The notes below the pieces were generated by a model. The model did no database searches and was not told where the DNA came from. It saw only the letters and a program-made list of their open reading frames with translations. Source: a virus. Taken from it: DNA of 30,016 bases. Shown piece after piece: positions 11,504-22,436 of the stretch; within the stretch, counting starts at the first letter, position 1; every line of letters begins with the position of its first letter. The DNA lies in the IMG/VR virus record IMGVR_UViG_3300048999_000341, positions 1 to 30,016 of that record; one strand, written 5' to 3'. The translations under genes and the position numbers were made by a program.

Positions 11504-11711
11504 TTTCTGATAAGTCCATTCGGCTGATTGACAACTACTTTGAGTACGTGTTTGGGCCAAATGTATGAACCCGTGAGATTTTGTTGCATCGGGTTAGCAA
11601 TTAGTTCTAGCTTTCAAAGTGGCATCGGGGATGGGTCGCCATGGTCGTCAGATTTCGCAAGGCCGCGCGGACTCCCTGGCCATTTCAATACGCAATTTTA
11701 AGAGGGGAAGA
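11504..11711. other. AT-rich insertion boundary carrying the protease upstream region
   Basis: About 200 bases of clearly lower G+C than the phage genes around it separate the chaperone start from the protease start. It contains a TTGACA at 11528-11533, but no convincing -10 box at 16-19 bp, and a run of AT-rich words (TTAGCAATTAG and others). I read it as the imported promoter and leader of the rightward protease gene, with the promoter position not resolved. Confidence 0.45.
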
Positions 11712-12989
11712 GTGCCCAGAATGCGTATTTCACGAAGATCTAGATGGTTGCCCACGTTTTTCGTAGCATTGCTCGCCACAGTGGGGGTCACCGCGCCAGC
11801 CATGGCCGCCGACCGCCTTGGCGGCTCGGACATCCTGGCCAACAGTGGCAACCTGTCGAGAGCGGGCAGTACCCTGGTGCCTTCACCGGCCCCGAAGGGA
11901 AGGTCCGCCATGGCCCCGTCTCCCGACCTCCGAGCTCTCGCCACAGCGATCCGCGACCAGGGAAAGCGAAGCCACCCCGACGGCTTCGTTCAGGCAGCCT
12001 TTTCGGACAATGGCGACACGTTGACGGTGTTCTGGCATGGAGATGTCCCGACGGGTATTGCCGCATTGGCGGCCAACTCGGCCAACCCCACCCAAGTTCA
12101 CTTCACGCAAGTTCCCTACACGCTCGCCCAATTGCGAGCCGAATCGAAGCGAATCTCCCTTGAGTACCCGTATGTTGCCTCAGCGGGACCTAGGTCTGAC
12201 TACACGGGGATCGAAGTCAAGATCAACCAGGCCAAGAAGTCTGCTAGTGCGGCTGAAATCGAGAGCAGCATGCCAGTAGACATCACATCAGGAGGAGGTG
12301 GTTGGGTCCCTTTAGTTCGTTATAACGATGCGGCCCCCTTCTCAGGAGGAACATGGATAAGTAACCCTGATTCGGGATTCGATTGCTCGACCGGATTCGC
12401 GATGACAACCACAACCGGAAGTCAAGCGATCAGCACCGCTAGGCACTGCTCCACGGCGGGTGCACCAAACTGGATGAACCCAGGCCACAATCGCATCTAC
12501 GGCACCGAGTTGCGATCGAATGCTCAAATAGACTCTATGCTGCTCTCTGGTCAATCCTACAAGGGGTGGGTTTACGTCGGAAACTGGGACAGCCCATACG
12601 GAGTTCCTGTGCATGGATGGAGCGATCCCTTTGTCGGGGACTTCACATGCGACGACGGTGGCCTCAGCGGTGAAGTATGCGGTGCGAAGGTAACGGCAAC
12701 GGACACATTCGCCGATGGGACCGGCCCCGGATACATCACCGATGTCACTGGAACCCACGATTTCGGCAGTTCAGGTGGCGGTGACAGCGGCGGGCCGAAC
12801 TATATTGCCGACGCCAACGGTGGAGTCATTGCGGCTGGTCAGATCACCTCGGGCCTTATTGAAAGCGAGGTAGATGCGTGTTCTCCGGGCGCTGTTCCAG
12901 CCGCTGGCCGCACTTGCTACCTTGTCGTGTTCCATTCAAATATTGAAGCTATTGACGATGCGCTGCTGGCGCACCCCATGACTGGCTAG
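11712..12989 (+). CDS. Secreted S1-family (trypsin-like) serine protease, phage cargo gene
   Basis: Exported endopeptidase precursor. The N-terminus is a classic signal peptide: basic RISRRSR, a hydrophobic core LPTFFVALLATVGVT, and an APAMA|A cleavage motif. A propeptide-like region of about 150 residues follows, then a chymotrypsin-fold domain with all three catalytic residues: His in STARHC (about 245), Asp in AQIDSML (about 274) and Ser in GGGDSGGPN (about 359). Cysteines flanking these sites fit disulfides. The start is a GTG close behind AGAGGGG; an ATG at 11721 is the alternative. It reads opposite to the late operon between major tail and chaperone genes and has lower G+C, so it is probably a lysogeny-expressed moron. 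It might also be an envelope-active virion or lysis factor, but the signal peptide argues for export by the host. Confidence 0.9.
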   Translation: MPRMRISRRSRWLPTFFVALLATVGVTAPAMAADRLGGSDILANSGNLSRAGSTLVPSPAPKGRSAMAPSPDLRALATAIRDQGKRSHPDGFVQAAFSDNGDTLTVFWHGDVPTGIAALAANSANPTQVHFTQVPYTLAQLRAESKRISLEYPYVASAGPRSDYTGIEVKINQAKKSASAAEIESSMPVDITSGGGGWVPLVRYNDAAPFSGGTWISNPDSGFDCSTGFAMTTTTGSQAISTARHCSTAGAPNWMNPGHNRIYGTELRSNAQIDSMLLSGQSYKGWVYVGNWDSPYGVPVHGWSDPFVGDFTCDDGGLSGEVCGAKVTATDTFADGTGPGYITDVTGTHDFGSSGGGDSGGPNYIADANGGVIAAGQITSGLIESEVDACSPGAVPAAGRTCYLVVFHSNIEAIDDALLAHPMTG

Positions 12990-17627: not shown

Positions 17628-18956
17628 TCACCGCCCGGTCAGGTCAGTGGTGGCGCGGGCCAGGGTGTCGGCCAGCAGCGCGTGCCCGTCGACAGCCGCG
17701 GGCATCTGCTCCCAGCGGCGCACGTCCTGATCCGTGACGCCCGGCAGACGCTCCCAGGTCGCTCGCGCAGGAACATCGAGCATCTGCACGGCCTTGCCCC
17801 AGGCATCAACGACGCCCGCCAGGGAACGGGTCGAGGTGTCGCGCCAGCGCACGACCGACGTGGTGTCGAGCCAGCCGGCCTCATCCCCGGCGGCGAGGCA
17901 GGACAGCCGCAGCGTCTGCTGCCACGACTCCCCGTAGGACGTCTTCCGCTCCCCGACCCTGCGCTGTAGTCCAGCATCGGCGGCGTCGATCGTGTCGGCG
18001 GCCAGATTCGACAGCGACCCGTGCAGCGCCCATGCCGGGGTCTGGGTGATCGCAGCCAGGTGCCGGAGGATCTGTTCCAGCACGGAGACATAGCCGGACA
18101 TGTCGGTGGAGTCGAACGTCCCGAACCTCGTCTCTGGCGAATCGGAGTGCAGCAGCCGGTCCGGGCCGATCGGTGGCTCTTCGTCGTCGTCCAGCTCCAG
18201 CCCGGCGGCCCAGCGCTGCCGGTGCGCGCCGTGCTCACCGGTCGTCATGAGCAGAAACGTCTGGTAGTTCAGCCGGTCCTGAATGTCGAGGACCGGGGCG
18301 ACCACACCGGGGCTGTCGGCGTCGAGGTCGTCTTCGTCCAGGAAACGGACGACCGGGCAGACGCCGAGGCCGTGTTCGGCGTGGTCGAGGTAGGCCGGGC
18401 CTTGACCGGGGTCGTTCTCGGCGAGGGTGTAGACGGCCGTGTCGTCGAACAGCCGGTAGACCTGGCGTGGGCCGTCCGGAGTCCAGGAGGTTTTCCGTTG
18501 TAGCGCGTAGATCGGCCAGGGGTCGGCGTAGACGGCGGTCATGTTCCGCGGGGACACGCCCCGGATGACCGGGGCCGTGTCGCCGGGCAGGACGGTGGTG
18601 TAGGCCCAGCCGTACTTCAGCGTGGCCCGGTGCACCGCGGCCTGGCGGCGCGCCAGGCCGTTCTGGTTCCAGTGCGACCAGCCCAGCGGCTCGTCCGCCT
18701 GGTCGTCGCCGAGCGCGCGGTAACCGTCCACGAACAGGTTTTGCGCCAAGAGCTGCATCAGCAGGCGGCACCAGTTCGTCCGGGACCGGTCGAGCAGCCA
18801 ACGGTACGCCCGCCGGGCCGAGCGGGGCGCGAACGGCAGATCGTGATCACCCTGGACGTAGCGGTGAATCCGGTTGTTGCGGGCCTGGTCTGGCCAGACC
18901 GCTTCGATGCGCTTGGCGACTTCTCTTGCGTCGGAAGGGGAAAACAGAGACTTCAC
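17628..18956 (-). CDS. Portal protein (SPP1 gp6-like)
   Basis: A 442-aa subunit of the dodecameric ring through which DNA enters and leaves the capsid. Recognisable features are the wing/stem region around GVVAPVLDIQDRLNYQTFLL and the crown-helix segment HLAAITQTPAWALHG, both characteristic of SPP1 gp6-type portals of actinophages, plus the aromatic WLLDRSRTNWCRLLMQLLAQ near the N-terminus. The start is a GTG at 18956 right behind GAGGGG, an unusually tight ribosome-binding site. A CTG four codons later would have better spacing, so the exact start is open. Upstream, the junction to the terminase is occupied by an inserted rightward gene, and the portal start lies only 42 nt from that gene's start, so the two diverge from a very short region. 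Confidence 0.93.
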   Translation of the reverse strand: MKSLFSPSDAREVAKRIEAVWPDQARNNRIHRYVQGDHDLPFAPRSARRAYRWLLDRSRTNWCRLLMQLLAQNLFVDGYRALGDDQADEPLGWSHWNQNGLARRQAAVHRATLKYGWAYTTVLPGDTAPVIRGVSPRNMTAVYADPWPIYALQRKTSWTPDGPRQVYRLFDDTAVYTLAENDPGQGPAYLDHAEHGLGVCPVVRFLDEDDLDADSPGVVAPVLDIQDRLNYQTFLLMTTGEHGAHRQRWAAGLELDDDEEPPIGPDRLLHSDSPETRFGTFDSTDMSGYVSVLEQILRHLAAITQTPAWALHGSLSNLAADTIDAADAGLQRRVGERKTSYGESWQQTLRLSCLAAGDEAGWLDTTSVVRWRDTSTRSLAGVVDAWGKAVQMLDVPARATWERLPGVTDQDVRRWEQMPAAVDGHALLADTLARATTDLTGR

Positions 18957-18998
18957 CCCCTCGATCGTGTCAACTCAATGCAGGTATCGTGCGGCGTC

Positions 18999-19562
18999 AT
19001 GAATCATTCAACTTCCGCATTATCACCTACGATCCTCAGAGGTCACCTGACCGTCATAGGCGAGGCTTTAGCATCACACAAATCAGATCTAGCCAAGCTG
19101 TCAAACTTGTCAATAATCCTTAAAGGTATCGCGAATAACGCTATACTCTCAGGAGTTCCACGAGAGCTTGTCTGCGCACTATTTGACTCGGCCGCCCTCT
19201 ACTCAAGCACAGGAGATGAGCAAGACAAAGAATACCTGTTCCACCTATCCACTCCCTTAGACAGTCGCACACTGGCACCAGGAGTACTCAATCGACACTT
19301 ACGTTTGATCTCCGAAACAACGACAGAGTTAACCAATTTAGAAACAAGGCTGGATACATCCTCTCAAACGGTTCACTCCCTGGTGAGAAACGCAGTGAAG
19401 TCGGGGGTTCCGAGAGATGATCTTCGCGAGATCATCGGGTCCGCCGGATGCGCTCCAGAATGGGACCTCACATCGGATGACTTTCCATTTCTGTCACGTA
19501 GTCTACTTCTGGCCGAGAAACACCTGAATAGAGCCATAGCAAAATCGAGATCGACTAGGTGA
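18999..19562 (+). CDS. Unknown two-repeat protein, cargo gene between portal and terminase
   Basis: A 187-aa protein I do not recognise. It contains two copies of one unit of about 84 residues: LRGHLTVIGE (13-22) with NAILSGVPRELV (47-58), matching LNRHLRLISE (97-106) with NAVKSGVPRDDL (131-142). Each unit is helical and ends in a polar, Asp-rich loop. There is no signal peptide or membrane helix, so it should be cytoplasmic. Its G+C is well below the neighbours and it uses codons they avoid (TTA, AGA, ATA), signs of recent transfer. It reads rightward inside the leftward late operon and overlaps the terminase stop by 8 nt. No clear ribosome-binding site precedes the ATG, so it may be leaderless. 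A lysogen-expressed role such as superinfection exclusion or antiphage defence is only an inference. Confidence 0.78.
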   Translation: MNHSTSALSPTILRGHLTVIGEALASHKSDLAKLSNLSIILKGIANNAILSGVPRELVCALFDSAALYSSTGDEQDKEYLFHLSTPLDSRTLAPGVLNRHLRLISETTTELTNLETRLDTSSQTVHSLVRNAVKSGVPRDDLREIIGSAGCAPEWDLTSDDFPFLSRSLLLAEKHLNRAIAKSRSTR

Positions 19563-21231
19563 AGACACGGAGCTTACCGCTCCGTCTGCGCCCGCGCTTA
19601 GCCCACTCCGGAGAGGCCAGTACCAATCGGCGAACATGGCGCGCACCGATCAGACACACGGCAAGGTCGATCTTGTGTGGAGAGTCCCGCGCCTCCTTAC
19701 GGATGAGCACGCCGTAGCGGGTCGGCAGCCGACGCGCGTTGAGCACGTGCCGGGTCAGGCGGGAGTCGCCATCATGAGTCAGGGCCTTCTGCCTGATCTC
19801 AGCCAGGGTGCGTTCCACGGCGGGGGTGAACTCAGGGACCTTGGCGCGCATGTCAAACGCGACGGCGGCGCGGCTGCGGCCGGTGGTCGCGTCGACCAGC
19901 AGCTGGTCCCCGAACTCGAATCCCCACGTGTCGACGTAGGACTCGAACTCGCGGACGTCGGCGAAGAACCCGACGACGTCGAACCGGTCGAACGCGGTGC
20001 GCACCGCCAGGTCCGCGGCCGCCCGATCGACCTCCCATCCGGCACCGGCGGGACCTTCGGGCTTCTCCTGGCAGTGCAACACGGCCGCGTGTCCGTCGGA
20101 CATCCGCACGGCAACCAGGCCGGTGGCGTCGTCGTTCTTGCTGCCGTCGAAGAACATGACCACCGTGTCGCCGTCGAGCAGCGGGGGCCGTTCGGGGTCG
20201 AGGCAGGCCGACCACTCCGGGGCGGTCGTCCACGCGGTGGCGGCCGATGAGCGCTGGTTGAAGAAGTACCGGCGGGACTCCTCCGGGGCCTTGGTGAGGT
20301 CCCAGAACTCGTTCTCGACGATGCCGGGCAGGTCCATCCAGTCGGCCGCTGGGCCGTAGACCTCCCGCAGGGCGGCCACCATCGCGTCCAGATCGGTCAG
20401 TTCAACGTCGGCCGGGGCCTCGCGGTGGTCCCACAGCAGCCGGGCCGAGCGGGTGCGGCCCTCCCGGATCGCCTTGGCCTGCCGGTCCAGCGCTTCGAGG
20501 ATCGAGTCTTCCCCGGCCTGGTACATCGTGGACGTCAGCAGGCCCCAGGGCTGCGCGGCCTTGCGCTTGCGCAGGTTCCGGTCCACGGTCTTGAACATCC
20601 GCCGCAGCTCGGGCGTGATGTAGAGGTGCGGTTCGTCGAAGATCGCGAGCGATTCCTTCCCGCCGTCCTTCGCGGACGAGCTGGCGGTGGACGGGACGAT
20701 TTCCCCGCCGCCGGGCAGCAGCACGCGCGTGAGCCCGGCCGCGCCGTTCGGCAGATCCTCTCCGAGCGGGCCCTCGGTGAGGTTGAAGTGGATGACGTCG
20801 AACGTGTTGCCGGTCTGGCTCTCTTCCGTTGCCAGGCAACGAATGTAGGGGTAGACGAGCGGCTGGCCCATCGGCTCGCCGGGCTCGTAGGTGTAGGTGA
20901 AGTCCCGCCACTGGTAGGTCTCACCACCGGTGGCCCATCCGGAGAACCGGCACGGGCCGAACGCCTCGTACAGCCCGACGAACCCGGCGATCTCCGACTT
21001 GGCGCGGCCCTTCGCGCGTGAGAGCACGGCCCGGCTGTACTGGCGGCGTCCGTGGCTGTCGAGTGCGTAGGCGTCGACCAGGAACCCGGCGAACTCGTCG
21101 TCGAGGTCGACGTCGTCGCCCTGGACGTCGCCGGGGCCGTGCACGGTGAAGTGCTCGGTCCACGCCGCCGCGAGCCAGCCCAGCGAGCGGCCGCGGTCGT
21201 GGCCGGGGGCGTAGACCAGCTCACGCGTCAC
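19555..21231 (-). CDS. Terminase large subunit
   Basis: A 558-aa DNA-packaging motor. The ATPase part has a Walker A-like loop SRAKGRAKSE (71-80), in the actinophage variant, and a Walker B LAIFDE (195-200) with the catalytic Glu. The nuclease part is an RNase H-like fold with acidic residues at D362 (FFDGSKNDD), D425 (FFADV) and D522 (KIDLAV). It cuts and pumps concatemeric DNA into the procapsid through the portal. The GTG start overlaps the small subunit gene by 11 nt. Its stop is overlapped by the stop of the convergent repeat protein, so the end of the gene was preserved when that cargo arrived. Confidence 0.96.
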   Translation of the reverse strand: MTRELVYAPGHDRGRSLGWLAAAWTEHFTVHGPGDVQGDDVDLDDEFAGFLVDAYALDSHGRRQYSRAVLSRAKGRAKSEIAGFVGLYEAFGPCRFSGWATGGETYQWRDFTYTYEPGEPMGQPLVYPYIRCLATEESQTGNTFDVIHFNLTEGPLGEDLPNGAAGLTRVLLPGGGEIVPSTASSSAKDGGKESLAIFDEPHLYITPELRRMFKTVDRNLRKRKAAQPWGLLTSTMYQAGEDSILEALDRQAKAIREGRTRSARLLWDHREAPADVELTDLDAMVAALREVYGPAADWMDLPGIVENEFWDLTKAPEESRRYFFNQRSSAATAWTTAPEWSACLDPERPPLLDGDTVVMFFDGSKNDDATGLVAVRMSDGHAAVLHCQEKPEGPAGAGWEVDRAAADLAVRTAFDRFDVVGFFADVREFESYVDTWGFEFGDQLLVDATTGRSRAAVAFDMRAKVPEFTPAVERTLAEIRQKALTHDGDSRLTRHVLNARRLPTRYGVLIRKEARDSPHKIDLAVCLIGARHVRRLVLASPEWAKRGRRRSGKLRVFT

Positions 21232-21680: not shown

Positions 21681-22436
21681 TCAGGCAGGGGCAGCCGGAT
21701 ACGGCTTCGCCAGCGGGCCGACCTGACGACGCATCGCGCGGTCCAGCGGATAGAGGTAGCGGTGTTTCACCGTGCTCTCGACCACCCGGCGCACGTGTGG
21801 GTCCACGGTGCGCCGCACGAAGTCCTCGGCGGTCTCTCCGGCCGGCCGATGGACCGCCATGTGGCGCAGCGTCCGGCCGTGCACCAGCTGCCCATGCACG
21901 ACGTAAGACGCGTTGGCCGGGTTGGTGGTGCCGGTGTAGATCCAGTTCCCGGCCTGGTAGATCCCGCCCCGATGGCCCTGGGCGGTGTCGGCGTAGGACA
22001 CGATCAGCCGCAGCCCGGGGCACGCGGCGCGAAGCTGGCGCAGGCTGGCCGCGACCATCTGCGTCACCGGGTGCTCGTGCGGGCGCAGCGCGACGCGCAG
22101 CAGCTCCACGCACTCGGTCTGGTCCAGGCCGTAGGGGTTGCCGAGCGCGGCCGTGGCGGACCGGCCGAACATGACCACGCCGGTGAACTCGCCGTGCTCC
22201 CACACCCCGAACGGGGCGATCTTGCTGCGCGGCATCTTCTGCGAGTAGTGCCAGCGCAGCACGGAGTACTGCGCGGCGTGCCACGAGCACGGGGCGACCA
22301 GCAGCGGGACGGACAGGTCAGCGTGCGGCCCACCGGGCGGAGGCAGTTCCACGGCTCCGGCGGGCGAGGGTGCGGGCAGAGAGCTGGTCGAGGCGGGGCA
22401 CGTCGGCGAGCGGGCGGAAGTCGGTTTCGCGGGCAT
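21681..22436 (-). CDS. Mom-like DNA modification protein (adenine methylcarbamoylation family)
   Basis: A 251-aa member of the phage Mu Mom-like family (GNAT fold), which converts some adenines in phage DNA to N6-methylcarbamoyl adenine and so protects the DNA from host restriction. The family hallmarks are present: WHYSQKMPRSK (62-72), then GVWEHGEFTGVVMFG and the signature SYADTAQGHRGGIYQAGNW (147-165). A disordered Pro-rich stretch (1-45) precedes the domain. It sits at the head of the packaging module, so modification may occur late, just before packaging. The ATG at 22436 has AAGG too close upstream, and a stronger AGGAGGT lies 45 nt further up in another frame, so its translation start deserves attention. 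Confidence 0.88.
   Translation of the reverse strand: MPAKPTSARSPTCPASTSSLPAPSPAGAVELPPPGGPHADLSVPLLVAPCSWHAAQYSVLRWHYSQKMPRSKIAPFGVWEHGEFTGVVMFGRSATAALGNPYGLDQTECVELLRVALRPHEHPVTQMVAASLRQLRAACPGLRLIVSYADTAQGHRGGIYQAGNWIYTGTTNPANASYVVHGQLVHGRTLRHMAVHRPAGETAEDFVRRTVDPHVRRVVESTVKHRYLYPLDRAMRRQVGPLAKPYPAAPA

Follow-up and report, generated by a model that had tools for sequence, protein, structure and literature searches.

What is a gene of 187 codons doing between the portal and terminase genes of this phage, on the strand opposite to both? The window, that is, the whole 30,016-bp virus record analysed, carries its late genes on the minus strand and encodes tape measure, major tail proteins, capsid, scaffold, protease, portal, terL and terS, as well as a serine integrase, a Mom-like protein and a replication initiator. 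The phage is probably a temperate siphovirus, the temperate lifestyle being indicated by the serine integrase, and its relatives point to Amycolatopsis-like actinobacteria as the host genus. No Rfam family was found in the window. The Mom-like DNA modification protein is encoded directly upstream of terS (21681–22436, minus strand; phrog_1384, E 1.7e-48).

The portal gene (17628–18956, minus strand; phrog_104, E 2.9e-97) and the gene for the terminase large subunit, terL (19555–21231, minus strand; phrog_9, E 3.8e-66), leave a 598-bp gap between the portal start and the terL stop (18957–19554), and this slot is filled antisense by the P0001 gene (18999–19562, plus strand). The open reading frame is intact and overlaps the terL stop tail-to-tail by 8 bp (19555–19562), in agreement with the preliminary description of the locus; an identical overlap is present in the related contig L022. 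The ATG at 18999 agrees with the N-termini of the homologues described below (P0004 and P0006), an alternative in-frame ATG lies at 18978, and the open frame also extends into the portal gene antisense. The open stretch is at about the 99.9th percentile of Markov-sampled slot sequences, and we read it as coding mainly because homologues at 19–23% identity retain the same frame. The non-coding reading, in which the locus would produce an antisense RNA only, was dropped for the same reason.

We compared the slot in six phages, several of which are known only as contigs: the window, L002 (the same as L011, from Amycolatopsis orientalis), L010, L012, L022 and L070. In all six of these closely related Amycolatopsis-type phages (terL 94–97% identical) the slot holds an antisense gene of low G+C that reads into the end of terL or into adjoining sequence. 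These genes belong to three unrelated families: the two-repeat family of P0001 in the window and L022, a multi-pass membrane family in L002, L010 and L012 (about 210 residues, three to five predicted membrane passes, 50–51% identical), and an unrelated 227-residue protein, P0007, in L070. A degenerate membrane-protein gene had been suspected in L010 and L012; this was ruled out, as both are full length. In the A. orientalis prophage the slot contains, in addition, about 3.4 kb of sense-strand DNA (L002:6425–9790), the reading frames of which, judged by eye, we take to resemble host lipoprotein and WXG100/PPE-type secretion genes.

In these phages the flanking DNA is 84–94% identical. This similarity breaks off a few bases from the terL stop on one side and near the portal start on the other, and the DNA in between shows none. 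The slot proteins of the window and L022 are 19–21% identical, in contrast to 94% for terL and 93% for portal, suggesting either that the gene was replaced from a diverse pool or that it changes very fast. Relatives with terL 64–78% identical mostly join terL to portal with 11–53 bp (seven relatives, at 72–78% identity, have gaps of this size). The exceptions, L014 (300 bp) and, at lower identity, L017 and L018 (186–223 bp), have phage-like G+C and no convincing cargo gene. In Streptomyces phage Samy and Arthrobacter phage Wildwest terL adjoins portal. The P0001 gene is thus missing from most relatives, including those whose flanking genes adjoin, as is characteristic of morons, and relatives do not share it as a component of the late operon. 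The preliminary description had proposed inserted cargo, and both the nearly empty slot of most relatives and the three unrelated families within near-identical flanks bear this out. We have little doubt that the P0001 gene is cargo in an exchangeable slot.

The lower G+C and foreign codon use claimed earlier were also seen. The G+C of the P0001 gene is 0.49 compared with about 0.67 for the window, and its GC3 is 0.47 compared with 0.75–0.93 for the other phage genes tested, excepting the protease cargo gene discussed below (0.62). The slot genes of the six phages have similar values (G+C 0.49–0.56, GC3 0.47–0.58). Such composition, unlike that of the phage, is a further mark of a moron.

Antisense placement among lytic genes, which are silent in the prophage, is typical of accessory loci and of genes expressed during lysogeny (PMC7067206). 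A weak candidate −10 element, TATCGT (18985–18990, plus strand), lies 8 nt before the ATG of the P0001 gene, so that the transcript would be leaderless. In L022 TAGGAT is similarly placed, the putative elements of the two phages being 6–8 nt before the start codon, where a TANNNT match is expected by chance about once per 80 bases. Neither the P0001 gene nor its L022 homologue has a clear ribosome site. Leaderless genes in actinobacteria have a −10 element just before the start and no clear ribosome site. A scan for consensus sigma-70 promoters found none at the P0001 gene start. The membrane-protein versions carry a purine-rich ribosome site and, about 30 nt ahead of the start codon, a −10-like TATAAT or TACAAT. 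We consider it fairly likely that the P0001 gene is expressed in lysogens, where a promoter of its own would drive transcription with the late operon inactive.

The protein was said to belong to no known family, and indeed its family is undescribed in the libraries tried, with no match in Pfam, PHROGs, NCBIfam, PADLOC or PDB sequences; PADLOC defence profiles gave none up to E 10 for P0001 and up to E 1 for P0004 and P0006. Direct searches of genome contigs, viral contigs and phages with P0001 only returned no homologue, and the homologues were reached only via the terminase neighbourhood and then by profile. Within the collections covered, in which the number of genomes was capped, two full-length relatives were found, both in other actinobacterial (pro)phages. 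P0004 (175 residues; BLASTP E 5e-6) occupies the same terL–portal slot in the metagenomic phage contig L022, and is the further copy sought between portal and terminase genes. P0006 (186 residues) is a profile match in a genome that shares its family with Amycolatopsis orientalis. The 35-kb viral record L088 encodes the same protein; there its gene is in sense orientation, behind an HNH-like gene and upstream of terS. The two-repeat family recurs near terS in an unrelated prophage. Whole-protein alignments gave z-scores of 8.3, 14.3 and 15.7. Other weak profile matches, named by eye, were judged to be due to chance: TetR-like regulators (L089–L091), a match within a SnoaL-like frame (L093) and a frame antisense to homoserine dehydrogenase (L101).

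P0001 is internally duplicated. The two-copy unit reported earlier was recovered with repeats exactly 84 residues apart (LRGHLTVIGE at 13–22 and LNRHLRLISE at 97–106; NAILSGVPRELV at 47–58 and NAVKSGVPRDDL at 131–142). Residues 8–65 and 92–149 form a gap-free 58-residue match with a BLOSUM62 local score of 72, a value reached by none of 2000 shuffles (mean 25.7, s.d. 4.8). The duplication is also significant in P0006 (0/2000 shuffles) and weaker in P0004 (p=0.015).

AlphaFold2, run with a three-member alignment, predicted the same layout for both repeats, a 41-residue helix, a G[VI]P turn and a 10-residue helix, at a mean pLDDT of 69 overall and about 80–85 within the repeats. Unit 1 (residues 8–65; 19020–19193, plus strand) has predicted helices at 10–50 and 55–64, and unit 2 (residues 92–149; 19272–19445, plus strand) at 94–134 and 139–148, each pair joined by a GVP turn. 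The C-terminal tail (residues 150–187; 19446–19559, plus strand) shares a P-x-WD-L motif with P0006 and has a low-confidence predicted helix at 165–185. A model of the single unit, built from six unit sequences (pLDDT 81), kept the layout, with helices at 7–47 and 52–61. The halves are thus alike in the predicted models, in the sense of matching secondary structure and sequence and not of coordinate superposition. With Foldseek, the full model had no match at E<=0.001, and the single unit had none at E<=10. VIA-align rows reaching Z 8.7 (p85 iSH2, tubulin cofactor A, STAT) were set aside, as antiparallel helices reach such Z by general shape. The fold searches gave no match that hints at a function. 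We read P0001 as a soluble protein of the cytoplasm, all-helical and composed of two fused units of about 58 residues, each a helix, a G[VI]P turn and a helix.

A single unit was found in P0010, a 94-residue chromosomal protein (hhalign probability 93%, E 2.8e-7; shuffle z of 11.1 against P0006), which we take as a relative despite a marginal per-genome E (7.6e-4) because the profile and shuffle tests are independent. P0010 was absent from 15 related genomes searched. Its gene (L100:1438–1722, minus strand) lies between acyl-CoA dehydrogenase-like and MerR-like genes and has a host-like GC3 (0.88). The existence of this protein suggests that tandem duplication of one unit probably gave rise to the two-unit form. 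The single unit may dimerise, and P0001 is best read as an intrachain pseudo-dimer of it, and the relatives with one and with two repeats would allow the conversion of a dimer into a fused pseudo-dimer to be tested. The chromosomal position of P0010 between ordinary genes also indicates that the family is not restricted to phage defence.

The closest parallel in architecture is Tab (tail assembly blocker), a moron of Pseudomonas phage JBD26, which is encoded on the minus strand between terS and terL with its own promoter, is expressed constitutively from the prophage and blocks tail assembly of invading phages (PMC10884400). For the comparison the tab gene was located in JN811560. Both proteins are small, have no known domain and are encoded antisense to the late operon beside terL. 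However, they are not homologous (hhalign probability 0.2%, BLASTP E 0.51): Tab has 83 residues and lacks the P0001 repeat, its gene lies between terS and terL rather than between terL and portal, and it has a partner, anti-Tab, in the late operon. P0001 may therefore work like Tab but is not Tab. As in morons of lambdoid and other temperate phages, an extra gene of deviant composition, often in opposite orientation, stands between genes that adjoin in relatives; here, in contrast, one exact site has received three unrelated gene families in near-identical phages, and a simple scan, which does not cover all actinobacterial terminators, found no terminator for the P0001 gene. RexAB-like pairs of actinophage prophages (Sbash gp30/31, Butters gp30/31; PMC6426596, PMC7542560) combine a cytoplasmic with a multi-pass membrane component, and the terL–portal slot likewise hosts a cytoplasmic and a multi-pass membrane family, but different phages have one or the other, and no slot has both. 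DUF4747 (RexA-type exclusion) was not matched in Pfam scans of P0001, P0004 and P0006.

Our best explanation is that the P0001 gene is a moron in an exchangeable terL–portal slot of a temperate siphovirus of Amycolatopsis-like actinobacteria, whose protein would bind a component of a superinfecting phage, or an intermediate made by it, to the benefit of the lysogen. The effect would be exclusion or interference with assembly in a Tab-like mode, and the rapid change and swapping of slot content would reflect an arms race. We put this explanation forward as a whole tentatively, a lysogen-expressed moron protecting against superinfecting phage being possible rather than probable, and the anti-phage function taken by itself is held with lower confidence still. 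It is on the doubtful side that P0001 represents a new prophage exclusion family, formed by tandem fusion of a helical-hairpin unit, in an antisense slot that exchanges soluble and membrane anti-phage genes. A lysogen-expressed cargo that serves the host otherwise, in stress, secretion or growth control, fits the evidence from slot, composition and orientation equally well; the second antisense cargo gene of the window resembles one for a secreted serine protease and is not evidently a defence gene, and the single-repeat relative is chromosomal. We nevertheless regard this alternative as rather unlikely, since very fast divergence and swapping (19–21% identity within 93–94% identical flanks) are more typical of conflict genes.

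The position of the gene invites other readings. Convergent transcription across the terL end, or P0001 itself, might quiet the packaging genes in lysogeny, consistent with the 8-bp overlap kept in L022 and with all six cargo genes converging on terL; this is improbable, as most relatives lack the insert and must do without it, and three unrelated slot proteins cannot all be the regulator, though the transcript could be. A lytic-cycle accessory protein, a helper of packaging or head assembly or a counter-defence factor, would suit a gene sitting among packaging genes and the sense-direction placement of P0006 near terS. This too has a low probability, since both slot members are antisense to the late operon and most relatives have these packaging genes but lack the gene. 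Finally, each G[VI]P turn could be a degenerate helix-turn-helix of a DNA-binding regulator: all seven units fit A-x3-G-[VI]-x4-[LV]-x2-hydrophobic, like a helix-turn-helix turn, and there are weak profile matches to TetR helix-turn-helix segments. We consider it very improbable, because these matches are at chance level (per-genome E about 1e-4, with 400 genomes covered), no helix-turn-helix family was matched in Pfam or NCBIfam, the moderate-confidence model has a continuous 41-residue helix and a short helix per unit without a tri-helical core, and P0001 is near neutral (net charge about −1).

In kind the locus is ordinary, a moron; what is new is the protein family and the documented exchange site. 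A simple search rule for this phage group, a gene lying antisense in the gap from terL to portal, yields undescribed, fast-changing cargo genes, with three families so far, none in Pfam. If they protect the lysogen, they would be new exclusion systems in antibiotic-producing actinobacteria, and if the exclusion reading is true, the slot could be mined for other unknown defence genes.

Antisense cargo was also seen at other sites. In the window, a second lower-G+C gene (11619–12989, plus strand) lies antisense between the tail chaperone and major tail protein genes. Its product has no Pfam, PHROG, NCBIfam or PDB-sequence match; the TARHC and GDSGGP motifs and the signal-peptide-like N-terminus suggest that it is probably a secreted chymotrypsin-like serine protease. 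The same gap holds an antisense gene for 155 residues in L010 (10823–11290, minus strand) and L012 (16711–17178, minus strand), and no gene in L086. The changing content of this second slot strengthens the cargo reading and does not imply a role of the cargo in defence. In another phage group, the site between terS and terL of L088 is a further antisense cargo site among packaging genes, encoding a protein with a single membrane helix (P0008; 8725–9339, minus strand; GC3 0.62).
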